Shown here: piece by piece, positions 13,311 to 60,809 of the stretch
Layout of the letters: each line of letters begins with the position of its first letter
Position numbering within the stretch: the first letter of the stretch is position 1
Source: Deltaproteobacteria bacterium
GTDB lineage: Bacteria; Desulfobacterota; Desulfuromonadia; Geobacterales; Pseudopelobacteraceae
DNA: 64,000 nt
Direction of reading: 5' to 3'
Assembly: GCA_016182975.1 (NCBI GenBank)
Contig: JACPFJ010000006.1
Location: forward strand, 1 to 64,000
Program-made: the position numbers and the translations under genes
The notes under the pieces: generated by a model
What the model was told of the DNA's origin: nothing
The model's input: the letters and a program-made list of their open reading frames with translations, nothing else
The model's database searches: none

Positions 13311-15392
13311 TTACCAGGTTTCGGGTGCATGGTTGTGTGTCCGGCCCGTGATGTTGTTATGACACGTGCCGTTGCACGACACCACCCCGCCCACCCTCGT
13401 GAAGGTCATGCCCGTCAGGGTCGCATCGGCTCCACCGGAGAAGGCCAGGGACACCTCGTTGAAGCCCTTGGCGACGCGATTGCTGTTTCCATGGGTTGCA
13501 GCACCCGTTCCACCCCCACTATGACATATGGCGCAGCCCACCACATGGGAGTCGGGATTGGAGTGGCTTCGCGCCGCATTGGGGAATGCCGTCCCATTCG
13601 GCCGGCCGGCGTTTGAATTGACATCATCGGCCGCGGCGCCGTGGCAATCGGAGCATTGCGGATCGCGCCCCGGGTTGGCGGCGAGGTGGCAGGAACGGCA
13701 GTTGGGAGGCGTTCCGGCCGGCACCGGATAGGGGTCGCCCGGCGCACTGACGGCATGGCACGCCGTACATCCCGTGGAAGATCCTTTATGCGCCGAGCCG
13801 GGGTTGGGAAAGGCGTGCACCCCTGGTGAGAGGTCAATGACGCCGTTGACGTGCCTGCCCGGATCGCCGAAGCCGTCGTTGGAGGCGCTCACATGGCCAT
13901 GGCACCCGTTGCAGGGTGTGTTGCCGGTGAAGCCGCCATGGACGGCGTTGGCTGGCGGGAAGCCGTGGCAGCGGCCGCAGCGCGTCCCCGCCGGGTATGG
14001 CGAATTCCAGGTCGGTGACAGGATGACCGCTGCCGGGGGAGGCGAATTGCTGGCCAGTGTCGTTCCATGGCAATAGGTGTTGTCGCAGCGCAGGGTTGCA
14101 AGGGTGAAGGAGGGCGCAGCCCCGCCGGCCCTGCTCAGGAGGCCGCCGAATGCCACCGGGCCGCCCTGGACGCCGGCAGTCCCGGCCCTGGCGCGGTTGA
14201 AGTGGTCGAGGGTGCCCGTGCCGAGCCCCTGGTGGCATTCGCCGCACAGTGCGCCCGCGGCCACGTTCAAGGCGGCGTGGCTGGTGTGTGTATTGCCGTT
14301 GTTCGGGTAGAGCGTGCCGTTGGGCGGTTGGCCGTGACAGGAGCGGCACTGGTTGATGGTCGTGGGCAGCGCGCTCACATGGCATTTCCGGCAGCGCGAT
14401 GCCCCCGGCACGCCGTTGACGCCGTCAAGGTCGGCTCCATGGCACAGCTTGCAGGCATCGAAGTTGGTTGCCGTACCGTGCCGGAACCAGGGGGTGCCGA
14501 GCGGGTCGGGGCTGGAGATGCCGAAGACGGCGGGGATCTGCATGACCGGCGGATGTGCCGTGAGGGCCTTGTGGCAGGTCTCGCAACCGGCCGACAGCCG
14601 GCCGATGGCAACATTGAAGCGTGGGTTGCTCCCTGGGCCGCCGCTGGGGTTGTCGGCGTGGCAGCGCTGGCAGAAGATCAGGTTGGCCTTGGCCGCGGCG
14701 CCGTGCTGAGCGGGATTGATCCATCCACTGGGATGCAGGCTGCCGTGGCAGAGGGTGTTGTTGAAGCATCCGGGCGCAGTCCCGCTCGGCTGCGGCGGCG
14801 GTGGCGGGAGATTTGTCAGAAACCTGCCGCCGGCATGGCACTGGGCACAGGCCGGGGCATTACCGGGGTCGGTGGTGGTGTGCGCGTGGACGGTACTGGC
14901 GGCCCAGTTGGCGGCATGCGGAGCGCCGATGCCATGGCAGCCGAAGGCAGGGTCGGACAGGGACGCCGACGAGGAGCACGACACCCCGGAGAGGAGGCCG
15001 CCCGCGTATCGGCTGCCGTGGCACCCCTGACAGCGGCTCAGGCCGAGGGATACGCCGAAGCCCTTGGCGTCGGCGCCGTGACTGCCGGGGTTGCGGTAGC
15101 CCGTGGGGTGAACGTGGCAGGAGCGGTCGCCGAAGCCCTGGCCGAAACAGCTCACCTTGGCGATGCCACCCCTGAGATCGCCGCCGTGACACTGGCTGCA
15201 GATGCTGCCCCTGGCCACCTCGGGGTTGTCGATCGCCCCGGGGAGGCTCCTGAATGCCTCGCGGTGGTCCACGATCCAGTTGGCGGGATGCCTGCCGAAT
15301 ACGTCCACTATGGTGGCGTTGTCGTTGGCCTTGCTGCATCCCCACACGGCGATGATGATCCACAGCATGACGCCGTGTCGTTGTATCCCCAT
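13311..15392 (-). CDS. Multihaem c-type cytochrome lipoprotein (about 15 haems)
   Basis: The protein has 693 residues. The short N-terminal hydrophobic segment ends in a lipobox-like AVWGCS, so it is probably an outer-membrane-anchored lipoprotein. I count 15 canonical CxxCH motifs (CSQCH, CQGCH, CAQCH, CQRCH, CETCH, CKLCH, CRKCH, CRSCH twice, CGECH, CGRCH, CNGCH, CTACH, CSDCH, CAICH). There are also spaced Cys-CH pairs: CX9CH, CX12CH, CX5CH, CX4CH and CX3CH. This mixture is typical of Geobacter CX4CH/CxxCH cytochromes that carry electrons across or outside the outer membrane. The N-terminal GRHPANW segment matches GRHPAGW of the cytochrome at 58673, so the two are paralogues. It lies 16 bp downstream of a kinase gene. 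Confidence 0.9.
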   Translation of the reverse strand: MGIQRHGVMLWIIIAVWGCSKANDNATIVDVFGRHPANWIVDHREAFRSLPGAIDNPEVARGSICSQCHGGDLRGGIAKVSCFGQGFGDRSCHVHPTGYRNPGSHGADAKGFGVSLGLSRCQGCHGSRYAGGLLSGVSCSSSASLSDPAFGCHGIGAPHAANWAASTVHAHTTTDPGNAPACAQCHAGGRFLTNLPPPPPQPSGTAPGCFNNTLCHGSLHPSGWINPAQHGAAAKANLIFCQRCHADNPSGGPGSNPRFNVAIGRLSAGCETCHKALTAHPPVMQIPAVFGISSPDPLGTPWFRHGTATNFDACKLCHGADLDGVNGVPGASRCRKCHVSALPTTINQCRSCHGQPPNGTLYPNNGNTHTSHAALNVAAGALCGECHQGLGTGTLDHFNRARAGTAGVQGGPVAFGGLLSRAGGAAPSFTLATLRCDNTYCHGTTLASNSPPPAAVILSPTWNSPYPAGTRCGRCHGFPPANAVHGGFTGNTPCNGCHGHVSASNDGFGDPGRHVNGVIDLSPGVHAFPNPGSAHKGSSTGCTACHAVSAPGDPYPVPAGTPPNCRSCHLAANPGRDPQCSDCHGAAADDVNSNAGRPNGTAFPNAARSHSNPDSHVVGCAICHSGGGTGAATHGNSNRVAKGFNEVSLAFSGGADATLTGMTFTRVGGVVSCNGTCHNNITGRTHNHAPETW

Positions 15393-42489: not shown

Positions 42490-44115
42490 ATGATCCACCT
42501 TTCCAACATCAGCAAACAGCACGGCTCGCAAGCGCTCTTCCGCGAGGCCAGCTTCCAGATCCTGCCCGGCACGCGCAGCGGTCTGGTCGGACCCAACGGC
42601 GCCGGCAAGACGACCATCTTCCGCATCATAACCGGCGAGGAGGAGGTGGATGGCGGTGAGATCACCTCTGCCAAGCGGACCACCATCGGATACTTCTCCC
42701 AGGATGTCGGTGACATGGCCGGCAGAACGGCCCTGGAAGAGGTAATGGCCGGTTCGGGCGAGACCATGCGCCTGGCCGGCGAGTTGCAGGAGATGGAGGC
42801 GGCCATGTGCGAGCCGCAGTCGGACGATGAGATGGCGGCGTTGCTGTCGCGTTACGGCGAGGCCGTGGAGGAGTTCGAGCACCGCGGCGGCTACGATCTG
42901 GACAGCCGCGCCCAGACCGTGCTGACCGGCCTAGGCATCGGACCGGACCGTTTTCACCACCCGGTGGAGTCTTTCAGCGGCGGCTGGAAGATGCGCATCG
43001 CCCTGGCCCGCATCCTGACCCTCAAGCCGGACGTGCTGCTCCTGGACGAACCGACCAACCACCTGGACGTGGAGTCGATCATCTGGCTGGAGGAGTGGCT
43101 GGCCGGCGAATTCGACGGCGCCCTGCTCATGACCAGCCACGACCGCGCCTTCATGAACCGCATCGTGAACCGCATCATCGAGGTGGCCAACAGAACGGTC
43201 ACCACCTACGGCGGCGACTATGACTTCTACGAGCGGGAATGTGCAGTCCGCCGCGAGCAGCTCCTGGCCAGTCACAAGCGCCAACAGGAGATGCTCGCCA
43301 AAGAGGAGGAATTCATCGCCCGCTTCGCCGCCCGCGCCTCCCATGCGGCCCAGGTACAATCGCGTGTCAAGAAGCTGGAGAAGATCGAACGCATCGAGAT
43401 CCCGGCCGAGGAGCGGGTGGTGCGCTTCGAATTCAACGAACCGCCAAGGAGCGGCGACGACGTGGTGGTGATGGACGGCTTGGCCAAGAGCTGGCAACTG
43501 CCGGACGGGCGGGAGCATCCGGTTTTCAGCGGCATCTCCGGTATCATCCGGCGCCAGAACAAGATTGCCGTGGTCGGAGTCAATGGGGCCGGCAAATCCA
43601 CCTTCCTCAAGGTTCTGGCCGGGCAAACGGGACCCAGCAGCGGCACGGTCGCCCTGGGCGCCAACGTGGAGATGGGTTATTTCAGCCAGCACGCCATGGA
43701 GGTGCTGGATCCGCGGCGAACCGTCTTCGAGACCGTTCAGGAGGCCATGCCCCTGGCCAACATCGGCGTGATCCGCAACCTGCTGGGGGCGTTCCTCTTC
43801 CAGGGAGACGCCGTGGACAAGCGGATCGAGAACCTCTCCGGCGGAGAGAAGAGCCGGGTCGTGCTGGCCACGCTCCTGGCGCGGCCGGTCAATTTCCTGG
43901 TGCTGGACGAGCCGACCAACCACCTGGACATCAAATCCCGTGAAATCCTGCTAGATGCGCTCAGGAACTTCAGCGGCACGGTGGTCCTGGTCAGCCATGA
44001 CCGCCACTTCCTGCGCTCGCTGGTGGACCGGGTTTTCGAGATCGACCACGGCGAGATGCGGATCTACGAGGGGAACTACGAGTATTACCTGGGCAAGGTG
44101 AATGGGGAGGGATGA
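42490..44115 (+). CDS. ABC-F ATPase
   Basis: This 541-residue protein has two ABC cassettes, GPNGAGKTT / FSGGWKMRIALARIL / LLLDEPTNHLD and GVNGAGKST / LSGGEKSRVVLATLL / LVLDEPTNHLD. They are joined by a charged linker (HKRQQEMLAKEEEFIARFAARASHAAQVQSRVKKLEKI). There are no membrane segments. ABC-F proteins act on ribosomes. The linker lacks the long extra coil of Uup, and I cannot tell an EttA-like from a YbiT-like role. ATG follows AGGGAG. Confidence 0.92.
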   Translation: MIHLSNISKQHGSQALFREASFQILPGTRSGLVGPNGAGKTTIFRIITGEEEVDGGEITSAKRTTIGYFSQDVGDMAGRTALEEVMAGSGETMRLAGELQEMEAAMCEPQSDDEMAALLSRYGEAVEEFEHRGGYDLDSRAQTVLTGLGIGPDRFHHPVESFSGGWKMRIALARILTLKPDVLLLDEPTNHLDVESIIWLEEWLAGEFDGALLMTSHDRAFMNRIVNRIIEVANRTVTTYGGDYDFYERECAVRREQLLASHKRQQEMLAKEEEFIARFAARASHAAQVQSRVKKLEKIERIEIPAEERVVRFEFNEPPRSGDDVVVMDGLAKSWQLPDGREHPVFSGISGIIRRQNKIAVVGVNGAGKSTFLKVLAGQTGPSSGTVALGANVEMGYFSQHAMEVLDPRRTVFETVQEAMPLANIGVIRNLLGAFLFQGDAVDKRIENLSGGEKSRVVLATLLARPVNFLVLDEPTNHLDIKSREILLDALRNFSGTVVLVSHDRHFLRSLVDRVFEIDHGEMRIYEGNYEYYLGKVNGEG

Positions 44116-56871: not shown

Positions 56872-58191
56872 ATGAACGGATCGGCATGCCGGCCGGCGCT
56901 GGCGCTTGTCATGCTTCTCGGTGCCCTCCTCCTTCCCGCGCCCGCCGGCGCGGCCGAGCTGGGGGCTAATTCCACCACCCTGTTCAGGTTCGAGCAGCGG
57001 GCCGTCCCCGGCTTTGCCGGAGAGACGGCGGTTCCGGCCACCGAGTTCATCGGGGCGGACCTGGAGAAGCTGGGGGACGGCAATCTCTCCATGCACCTCT
57101 ACGGCTGGGGGAGGGCGGACCTGGCGGAGCGGAGCAGCGGCAAAGAGCCGAGCGAGGCCGACCTGGCCCATGCCTTCATGAAGTACCGCTTTCCCAGGGC
57201 GAACGGAGAGTTGCGGGCCGGGAGGGTCTTCGTCAGGGAGGGGGCCGCGGTGGAACGGATCGACGGGGTCAGCGCCAGGGCCGACCTGAGGGGCGGCCTT
57301 GCCCTGGCCCTGTTCGGCGGCGCGCCGGTCAGGCTCGACCGGGACGATGGCAACAAGGGGGAGTACATCGCCGGCGGCAGGGGGAGCTGCCGCCTCGGAG
57401 GGGTCCTGGAATTGGGGCTCTCCGGCCTGCACGAGGGGGGCATCACCCCGGACCCCGCCGGCGGCGCCAGGTCCGAGCGGCAACTGGTCGGGGGGGATAT
57501 CTGGCTGCTCCCCGATCCGCTCGTCGAGCTGAACGGCCACAGCTTCTACAACGCCGCCACCGACGGCCTGGCCGAACACAGCTACCTCGCCACGGTCAGG
57601 CCGGGCGATTCCCTGTCCCTGTCCGGCAGCTACAACGAGGTCCGTTTCCGCAACCTCTTCAACGCCACCACGATCCGCTAACTGTTCAATCCCGACGACA
57701 GCGGCGGGCAGCGGTCCTTTGGTGCGGCAATCACCTGGCGTGTCCCCGGCCCGCTGGAGCTGACCGCCGACTACCGGCGTCAGAACCGTTTCAGCTCCGC
57801 CGACAGCGCCGGCGCCGGCAACTCCCACCGCTACGGAGGGGAGCTGCGGGCGTCCCTGCTCTACAAGCAGCTCCGCTCCGGACTCTCCTATCACCGCAGC
57901 GACGGCGCGGGCGGCCTCAACTCCTATCACCAGGCGCGCTGGTACGGCATGTACGACGCGGAGCGCCACGTCGCCAGCCTGGATGCCATCGCCCAGTTCT
58001 TCGACACCCCCGTCTTCAAGCGGAAGGAGGCCATCGAGGTGATCGCCTCCCTCGGCTACCGCATCCGTGCGGAGCTGGCCCTGTCGGGGGAGCTCGTCTA
58101 CGCCCGCAACCCGCGTCTCGACGACGAGGTCAGGGGGGTGCTGCGGCTCAACTACAGCTATAGCTACACAGGCAAAGGGGTAACGAAATGA
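56872..58191 (+). pseudogene. Outer-membrane beta-barrel (porin-like) gene with in-frame stop
   Basis: The product begins with a signal peptide (ALALVMLLGALLLPAPAGAAE) and short alternating amphipathic strands (LSMHLYGWGRADLAE, ELRAGRVFVREGAAVERIDG). At 57679-57681 a TAA interrupts the frame after NATTIR. The same frame then continues LFNPDDSGGQRSFGAAITWRVPGPLELTADYRRQNRF to a natural end at 58191 (SYSYTGKGVTK). Full length would be about 439 residues. A Tyr codon TAC to TAA change is the simplest explanation. The true end overlaps the next cytochrome gene (ATGA), as expected for an intact ancestor. Confidence 0.85.
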
Positions 58192-58676
58192 GAGGGGCAA
58201 GGCTCTTGGTTCAGATCGCGCTTCTGGCCGCCATGGTCCCGCTGGCGGCGTGCAGTTGGATGTTCTCCCCGGAAACGTCCCTTCCCGGCCGGCACCCCTT
58301 TGATCTGGGAGAGGGGCGGGCGCTGTGCGGCGAGTGCCACGAGGGGCGGATCAAGGGGGTCGGCAAGCCGTTCGCCTCCTTCAGCCATTCGCCGGAATTC
58401 GTCCGGAATCACCGTCTCCGCGCGGCCAGGGACGAGCAGGTCTGCGTCCTGTGCCACCACGGCTCGTTCTGCAACGACTGCCACGCCGGCAAGACCGAGA
58501 TCAAGCCGTCCGTCAAGCTCGGCAACCGGCCGGACCGGGAGCTGATCCACCGCGGTGACTATGTCTCCCTGCACATGATCGACGGCAAGAGCGACCCGAC
58601 CAGTTGCTACAGGTGCCACGGCAGGGCCAACAACGAAAAATGCGCCGCGTGCCACCGGGGCGGGGGGAGACGATGA
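58188..58676 (+). CDS. Pentahaem c-type cytochrome lipoprotein
   Basis: This 162-residue protein has a lipoprotein signal (ALLAAMVPLAACSWMF; lipobox LAAC) and five CxxCH motifs: CGECH, CVLCH, CNDCH, CYRCH, CAACH. HSPEF precedes the second haem, as in many Geobacter cytochromes. Its start overlaps the barrel gene stop, and its stop overlaps the next cytochrome gene (ATGA at each), so the three form one coupled operon. It is probably the small partner of a porin-cytochrome module. Confidence 0.88.
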   Translation: MRGARLLVQIALLAAMVPLAACSWMFSPETSLPGRHPFDLGEGRALCGECHEGRIKGVGKPFASFSHSPEFVRNHRLRAARDEQVCVLCHHGSFCNDCHAGKTEIKPSVKLGNRPDRELIHRGDYVSLHMIDGKSDPTSCYRCHGRANNEKCAACHRGGGRR

Positions 58677-59980
58677 ACGGCGCTGGCATCCTTCCGGGGG
58701 CAATCCTGATCGCCGCCTTGACGGCCATCCTGTGGGGGTGCGGCAGCGCCGGCAAGGATGCCCCCGCCTTCGACATCGCGTCGGGGAGGCACCCGGCCGG
58801 CTGGGTGGACGCCGATGGCGGCGGCCACAGGAGTGGGTTCAATGCCGATCCCTCCCAGTGCCGGCAATGCCACGGGAGCGACATCCTCGTCCCCGGAGGC
58901 GGGGGAGGGATTAGCGGGGTGGGCTGTTCCTCCACCGGCTTCAACGCCCTGACCTGCCATGCAGACGGCCATCTGCCGAGGATCGCGCCCCACCCGCTGC
59001 CGTTCCGGGACCCGGCCCTCCACGGCCCCGCGGCCAAGCGGGATCTGACATTCTGCCGGGGATGCCACGCCGTCCCGTTCAGCGGCGCCCCCGGCGGTAA
59101 CCCCCGCTTCAACGCGAAGATCGGCTCACTGCTCAATGGCTGCGAGGATTGCCACAACACGGGGACGGCGCACCCCTCGTCGCCTGCGCCGGATTCCGTC
59201 CCCTGGCGCGGCCCGGTCAGCCATGGCGACGCCTCCAACCTGGCCGCTGCCTGCGCCCTCTGCCACGGCGCGAATCTGGACGGCCGCGGCGGGGTCGGCC
59301 CGGCCTGCTCCACCTGCCACAGCGCCGCCTCCCCCCTGAGCGCGCCGAATTGCGCCTCCTGCCACGGCGCTCCCCCCTCGGGAGCGGTCTTCCCCAACAT
59401 ATCGGGCAGCCACCGGGCGCACAACGCCCTGAACCTCGTCACCGGGGCCTGCTCCACCTGCCACGACAGGGCTGGGATCGGCTCGGCGGAGCATTTCAAC
59501 CAGACGGTGAACGTCGCCTTCTCCGCCCCCTTCAATGCCGGGTCCGGCGCGGCATCGTACGACCCGGCAAGCGCATCCTGCACGAACGTCAGCTGCCACG
59601 GCGGCCTGACGACGCCACCCTGGCGCGGCGGCACGATCGACGTGGACAGACAATGCAACCTCTGTCACCGCTCAAGGTTGCAGGAGCCGCCGGAGCAGTT
59701 CAACAGCTACTTCTCCGGGAGGCACGATTTCCACGTCTTCATCTTCGGGACCGTCCCGATGATCTCCCCGACCTGCACCCAGTGCCACGATACCGGCAAG
59801 CTGGCCCCGGGACATTTCGGCGGCCTCGGCACCGCCGCCTTCGAGCAGGCGCCGGCAGCGACCATCAGGGACGCGGTCAATTACGCGGGAGGCTCCTGCA
59901 CGCCGGACAACGCGCCGGGAAACTTCTCCATCGGCTGCCATCCCGCCCCGCCATTGACACGGGTGTGGGCAACGCCATGA
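58673..59980 (+). CDS. Multihaem c-type cytochrome lipoprotein (about 9 haems)
   Basis: This 435-residue protein has a lipobox-like ILWGCGS and nine CxxCH motifs (CRQCH, CRGCH, CEDCH, CALCH, CSTCH twice, CASCH, CNLCH, CTQCH). Spaced pairs are CX9CH, CX4CH and CX12CH, the same spacings as in the 13311 cytochrome. N-terminal GRHPAGW also matches that protein. An outer-surface or outer-membrane electron carrier is likely. It is the last gene of the barrel/cytochrome operon. Confidence 0.9.
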   Translation: MNGAGILPGAILIAALTAILWGCGSAGKDAPAFDIASGRHPAGWVDADGGGHRSGFNADPSQCRQCHGSDILVPGGGGGISGVGCSSTGFNALTCHADGHLPRIAPHPLPFRDPALHGPAAKRDLTFCRGCHAVPFSGAPGGNPRFNAKIGSLLNGCEDCHNTGTAHPSSPAPDSVPWRGPVSHGDASNLAAACALCHGANLDGRGGVGPACSTCHSAASPLSAPNCASCHGAPPSGAVFPNISGSHRAHNALNLVTGACSTCHDRAGIGSAEHFNQTVNVAFSAPFNAGSGAASYDPASASCTNVSCHGGLTTPPWRGGTIDVDRQCNLCHRSRLQEPPEQFNSYFSGRHDFHVFIFGTVPMISPTCTQCHDTGKLAPGHFGGLGTAAFEQAPAATIRDAVNYAGGSCTPDNAPGNFSIGCHPAPPLTRVWATP

Positions 59981-59993
59981 ACCCAAAAAAACC

Positions 59994-60171
59994 GTTGTCC
60001 ACGAAACATACGAAAATCACGAACGATTTCAAAATGCTACATCAGAGGATCTCCTCACCATTGAGGTGGAGTGTTATTCTTTCGTATCTCATTAATTTTA
60101 ATTCGTGTTTTTCGTGGATAACTGCCTTTTTCAGGTTCAATCTTTCGTGCCGTTTCGTGTCTTTCGTGGAC
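59994..60171. repeat. CACGAAA-type inverted repeat element, three copies
   Basis: A forward copy (GTCCACGAAACATACGAAAA, 59994-60027) faces two inverted copies: 60100-60120 (rc ATCCACGAAAAACACGAATT) and 60143-60171 (rc TCCACGAAAGACACGAAAC). Words recur every 8-9 bp. It fills most of the 289-bp gap before the CHRD gene. Confidence 0.75.
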
Positions 60172-60269: not shown

Positions 60270-60809
60270 ATGAAAAACATCAATATAACGACATGGTTGC
60301 GGACCATGGCTGCCTGTGCGGTTATCGGCCTGTTCGCCCTGCTGGCGGCAGGCTGCGGCAGCGGGAGAGAAGGGGGAATGCCGGCGACGGAGACGATAGC
60401 GAGCGCGGTAGCGCCAACGACCCTGAACGCCGTGCTGAGCGGGGCCCAGGAGGTTCCGCCGGTCGTCTCCGCCGGTAGCGGCACGGCCACGGTCACGATT
60501 GACGCGGCCAGGACCACCATCACCGTAACACTCAACACGACCGGACTGACCGGCGTCACCGCCTCCCACATCCATGCCGGCGCCGTGGGGATTAACGGCG
60601 GCGTCATCTTCCCGCTCTTCGCCGCCCCGGCGGCCTTTCCGGCCACCCTGACCAAGACCCTGACCAGCGCCGATTTCACGCCCGACGCGGCCAACGCGGT
60701 CAACACCTTTGCCGACGCGGTGAACGCCATGCTGATCGGCAACACCTACATCAACGTCCATACCGTGGCACACCTGGGGGGCGAGATCAGGGGGCAATTG
60801 ACGCCATAA
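60270..60809 (+). CDS. CHRD-domain lipoprotein
   Basis: This 179-residue protein has a signal (ACAVIGLFALLAAGCGS; lipobox LAAGC) and a CHRD-like domain: LSGAQEVPPVVSAGSGTATV, TGLTGVTASHIHAGAVGINGGVIFPL, YINVHTVAHLGGEIRGQL. These are the characteristic AQEVPP, HIHAG and HxxxxxGGEIRGQ motifs. The function is unknown. A terminator follows at 60844. Confidence 0.9.
   Translation: MKNINITTWLRTMAACAVIGLFALLAAGCGSGREGGMPATETIASAVAPTTLNAVLSGAQEVPPVVSAGSGTATVTIDAARTTITVTLNTTGLTGVTASHIHAGAVGINGGVIFPLFAAPAAFPATLTKTLTSADFTPDAANAVNTFADAVNAMLIGNTYINVHTVAHLGGEIRGQLTP

Follow-up and report, generated by a model that had tools for sequence, protein, structure and literature searches.

Three genes for a porin-cytochrome conduit of the outer membrane lie on the forward strand of the window, by which we mean the whole 64,000-nucleotide stretch of DNA that was analysed, and the first of them is interrupted by a stop codon.

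56872-58191, forward strand: ExtE-type outer-membrane barrel gene, interrupted; 269 aa as written
57679-57681, forward strand: in-frame TAA; the aligned column holds Ser in 9 of the 9 nearest relatives
57682-58191, forward strand: barrel frame 3' of the TAA; 169 codons encoding 9 predicted strands, the first 89 without a start codon
58188-58676, forward strand: ExtF-type pentaheme lipoprotein cytochrome gene; 162 aa, 5 CXXCH motifs
58673-59980, forward strand: ExtG-type multiheme lipoprotein cytochrome gene; 435 aa, 9 CXXCH and 3 atypical CX4-13CH motifs

The original prediction, made from the DNA letters, described a porin-cytochrome operon with 4-bp overlaps and a nonsense codon about 61% into the barrel gene, and both descriptions hold. 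The three frames read as claimed, with ATGA overlaps of 4 bp each at 58188-58191 (barrel/pentaheme) and 58673-58676 (pentaheme/multiheme). The barrel frame comprises 439 codons, of which 269 are read before a single TAA at codon 270 (61%) and 169 stay open up to the TGA at 58189-58191. By inspection, the lipobox cysteine is residue C22 (LAAC) in the pentaheme protein and residue C23 (LWGC) in the multiheme protein. No promoter or terminator signal beyond chance was found for the operon. Directly 3' of it, at 59985-60171, inverted and direct TTTCGTGTCTTTCGTGG-like repeats precede a CHRD-domain gene (60270-60809).

Coding signal persists in the barrel frame beyond the TAA under a fourth-order periodic Markov model, and the nearest first possible start codon lies 89 codons downstream. 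Identity to the nearest relatives is 49-65% before the TAA and 43-56% after it, the latter along the whole post-stop length. The persisting signal and the full-length alignment of the post-stop frame point to an interrupted gene rather than to chance. The ratio of conservation after the TAA to that before it is 0.92 in the window, compared with 0.99 +/- 0.07 in other pairs; the post-stop part is thus nearly as conserved as the pre-stop part, suggesting that the mutation, if real, is recent. An open frame with coding signal is also what would be expected if the stop were read through or suppressed so that full-length barrel is made, but this is scarcely credible: no suppressor tRNA was found, although the 390 kb scanned gave only two tRNA genes (both Ser, with ordinary anticodons) and so make a weak test, and this column is free of stops throughout the nine nearest relatives, so that the site is no conserved recoding site. 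The column holds Ser in all nine, and Ser, Ala, Thr, Phe or Asn in a wider set. TAC (Tyr), which had been offered as the alternative codon at 57679, therefore finds no counterpart, as Tyr occurs in neither set.

Matches to the barrel were found in 101 of 141 genomes of the order, and nearly every one of the roughly 140 matches listed is intact. Among these, the only clear break besides that of the window is in G029, a one-contig genome, where a frame change splits the barrel into two overlapping frames (L103 5371-6692) with open pentaheme and multiheme genes downstream. A TAG in the G005 barrel, at one time counted as an interruption, was rejected as the gene's own end. Matches to the pentaheme protein occur in 48 of 57 related genomes if the weaker OmaB-like ones are counted, as well as in Geothrix, and each of the 34 pentaheme relatives checked retains the five heme motifs. 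A tree of 41 barrels places that of the window among ten that form a group here called type I, one operon of which lies near 2.13 Mb in G086 (5,136,364 bp).

In columns that are otherwise invariant, the window barrel shows 18 departures in 116, against 39 in 725 for the relatives together (Fisher p 4e-4). These departures are found both before the TAA (11/73) and after it (7/43), and the window pentaheme protein shows 3 in 61. Since the longer branch of the window is present in the pentaheme protein as well as in the barrel, it does not single out the broken gene and may reflect the age or rate of the operon rather than lost constraint on the barrel.

By sequence, the site of the operon is variable among congeners. 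In G001 both flanking genes are present with no operon between them; by inspection, an ion-channel-like gene lies in its place on the opposite strand (L118 2250-3515, contig G001:C155). In G003 the flanking radical-SAM gene directly adjoins the MFS gene. The four other genomes of the genus examined, three of them incomplete, yielded no type I barrel. A foreign origin by base composition was considered and rejected: the operon has 69% G+C and the sampled genome 60%, but the neighbouring genes also have 64-69%.

Neither Pfam nor NCBIfam yielded a family matching the barrel, and the PDB held no sequence relative of it or of the pentaheme protein. The barrel was folded with the TAA read as serine, for the model only. 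The resulting model has 22 strands, 13 before the TAA and 9 after it, with a mean pLDDT of 60 and values mostly of 70-87 at residues 281-420. It matches the structures of outer-membrane barrels, TonB-dependent receptors and Occ porins included, the highest Z being 18.6. A barrel fold is therefore predicted for the read-through gene, and the absence of predicted strands from the gene family, named beforehand as a ground for rejection, was not observed, about 22 being predicted.

The original prediction also proposed that the operon represents a separate type of conduit. This is not borne out: gene order and heme make-up match ExtEFG of Geobacter sulfurreducens (PMC6148476), and relatives are found in the published extEFG setting. 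As in ExtEFG, the barrel is followed by a pentaheme lipoprotein and a multiheme cytochrome; the third protein has 12 possible hemes, like ExtG, and it shares atypical heme motifs with GSU_2724, in which CX3-15CH motifs have been described (PMC4245776). The read-through model, with 22 strands, agrees with the approximately 21 of the ExtEFG barrel, but as written the gene is cut after strand 13, and the TAA at 57679 sets it apart from an intact ExtE. The window operon further differs from ExtEFG in that no OmcB cluster, YedY gene or hydrogenase adjoins it, and a lipobox is present in its third protein, ExtG by contrast being predicted to be periplasmic. The likeness to ExtEFG is one of gene order, hemes and the synteny of relatives, set against the published description of the G. 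sulfurreducens proteins.

In G. sulfurreducens, extEFG is GSU2726-2724, with genes for a YedY homologue and for a hydrogenase of Hox type downstream, and the omcBC cluster is GSU2739-2731 (PMC6148476); by these locus numbers, extEFG lies just beyond omcBC. In G064 (L096), the type I operon is preceded by genes for a TetR regulator, an OmbB-like barrel, an 8-heme OmaB-like protein and a multiheme OmcB-like protein, and is followed by a YedY-type molybdopterin oxidoreductase and then a HoxE-/HoxF-diaphorase-like pair, the OmbB, OmcB and Hox names being assigned by inspection of sequence and order. The synteny of this relative matches the published extEFG setting and so points to ExtEFG rather than to ExtBCD. 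An 8-heme OmaB-like gene also lies near the operon of a near relative in G053 (L105). G064 also contains, at L096 7914-9319, another OmbB-like barrel frame, which continues into a part resembling an OmcB-type C-terminus in a different frame; this looks like a collapsed second omb-oma-omc unit. Homologues of ExtEFG have been reported in Holophaga (PMC11748539).

Other named conduits fit less well. The ExtBCD part of ExtABCD (PMC6148476) likewise combines a barrel, a pentaheme lipoprotein and a 12-heme lipoprotein, but no gene for the periplasmic 12-heme ExtA stands beside the window barrel, the upstream gene encoding a metallo-beta-lactamase-fold protein, and 22 strands are predicted as against 18. 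Published ExtABCD clusters may lack a neighbouring extA, so that a missing ExtA alone is not decisive. OmbB-OmaB-OmcB resembles the operon in principle, as a barrel with two multiheme cytochromes, but OmaB-like proteins carry 8 hemes and are about 32% identical to the window pentaheme protein, and order and sizes differ. The Mtr conduit has a 28-strand MtrB and a decaheme MtrA, unlike the 439 residues, 22 predicted strands and pentaheme partner seen here. The window operon is thus a defective member of the known ExtEFG kind, and no new conduit type.

A second ExtEFG-type locus lies on another contig, C22, of the same genome; the window lies on contig C12. Its gene order is decaheme lipoprotein (MtrC/OmcA-like), barrel, pentaheme, multiheme, and its lesion and its decaheme gene are placed as follows.

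L008 596-3670: MtrC/OmcA-like decaheme lipoprotein gene, upstream of the C22 barrel gene
L008 5329-5729 (G000:C22, about 43,330-43,730): lesion of the C22 pentaheme gene, a 74-bp deletion with frameshift

The barrel and multiheme genes are intact, and the frame of the pentaheme gene is lost. A decaheme lipoprotein upstream of extE is a published ExtEFG variant (PMC6148476, Fig. 9 note c), shared by the C22 locus; the window operon has no upstream decaheme gene. With the pentaheme gene broken at C22 and the barrel gene broken in the window, neither ExtEFG-type copy is whole. The lesions are complementary and both third genes are open, such that the intact C22 barrel could serve the intact C12 pentaheme protein, giving one working conduit in trans from two half-broken loci. 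This is very improbable: two independent decays account for the same facts, the two barrels share only about 43% identity and fall in different clades, the C22 copy in a commoner one, and exchange of partners is hypothetical.

The TAA could instead stem from faulty base calling or assembly, or represent an allele of a minority strain, in which case the operon would be an ordinary intact ExtEFG conduit. The genome is a metagenome assembly, 66% complete, the TAA is one isolated substitution in a frame otherwise clean and conserved, and the barrels of nearly all relatives are intact among the matches listed. To look for other interruptions, 390 kb of the 2.45 Mb were scanned with the Markov model, which replaced codon log-odds scans with a retrained codon table that proved too unspecific. 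Among about 265 clear coding ORFs, the window barrel is the only clear interrupted coding frame, with other signals confined to low-complexity or weak cases such as C12:186930, suggesting that poor assembly in general is unlikely. The second copy is also broken, by a 74-bp deletion beyond what base error explains. Moreover, the barrel gene's 32 serine codons are all at least two changes from TAA, save two TCG codons for which one change gives TAG, and this codon usage makes a one-base error somewhat less likely. An error or minority allele is accordingly a real possibility but a doubtful one.

We consider it probable that this is a known ExtEFG-type conduit with a real nonsense mutation in its barrel gene, that the window copy is non-functional and that both copies are decaying under relaxed selection. 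The lesions in the sequence and the family are shown and the barrel fold is predicted; that the lesions are real in the organism, that function is lost and that selection is relaxed are all three inferred. Ordinary gene decay, or a lesion of a single strain, is at issue, rather than a new kind of conduit.

The BAM machine inserts outer-membrane barrels and recognises their last strand. Of about 22 strands, the TAA in the window would remove the final 9, among them the C-terminal one used for membrane insertion; lacking this strand, the 269-residue fragment is expected to be degraded, so that no pore should form and the copy should be non-functional. In intact relatives, the ExtE barrel would hold the ExtF pentaheme lipoprotein, and together with the multiheme ExtG they would carry electrons delivered by periplasmic cytochromes through the outer membrane and on to metal oxides; genetic studies in G. 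sulfurreducens indicate that the conduit proteins pass electrons across this membrane (PMC6148476). Both cytochrome genes of the window remain open, which counts against decay, and they may be translated without a pore, but their products would need acceptance by the C22 barrel to make up a conduit. Provided that both lesions are real, the bacterium has lost or is losing its ExtEFG-type conduits by two independent hits. It would then offer a natural counterpart to laboratory deletions of conduits, and a warning that the presence of conduit genes is not by itself a safe basis for scoring metal reduction.

Elsewhere in the window, at 13311-15392 on the reverse strand, a gene for a 693-aa multiheme lipoprotein resembling the ExtG-type third protein lies next to a sensor kinase gene; neither a barrel gene nor a pentaheme gene was found adjoining it.
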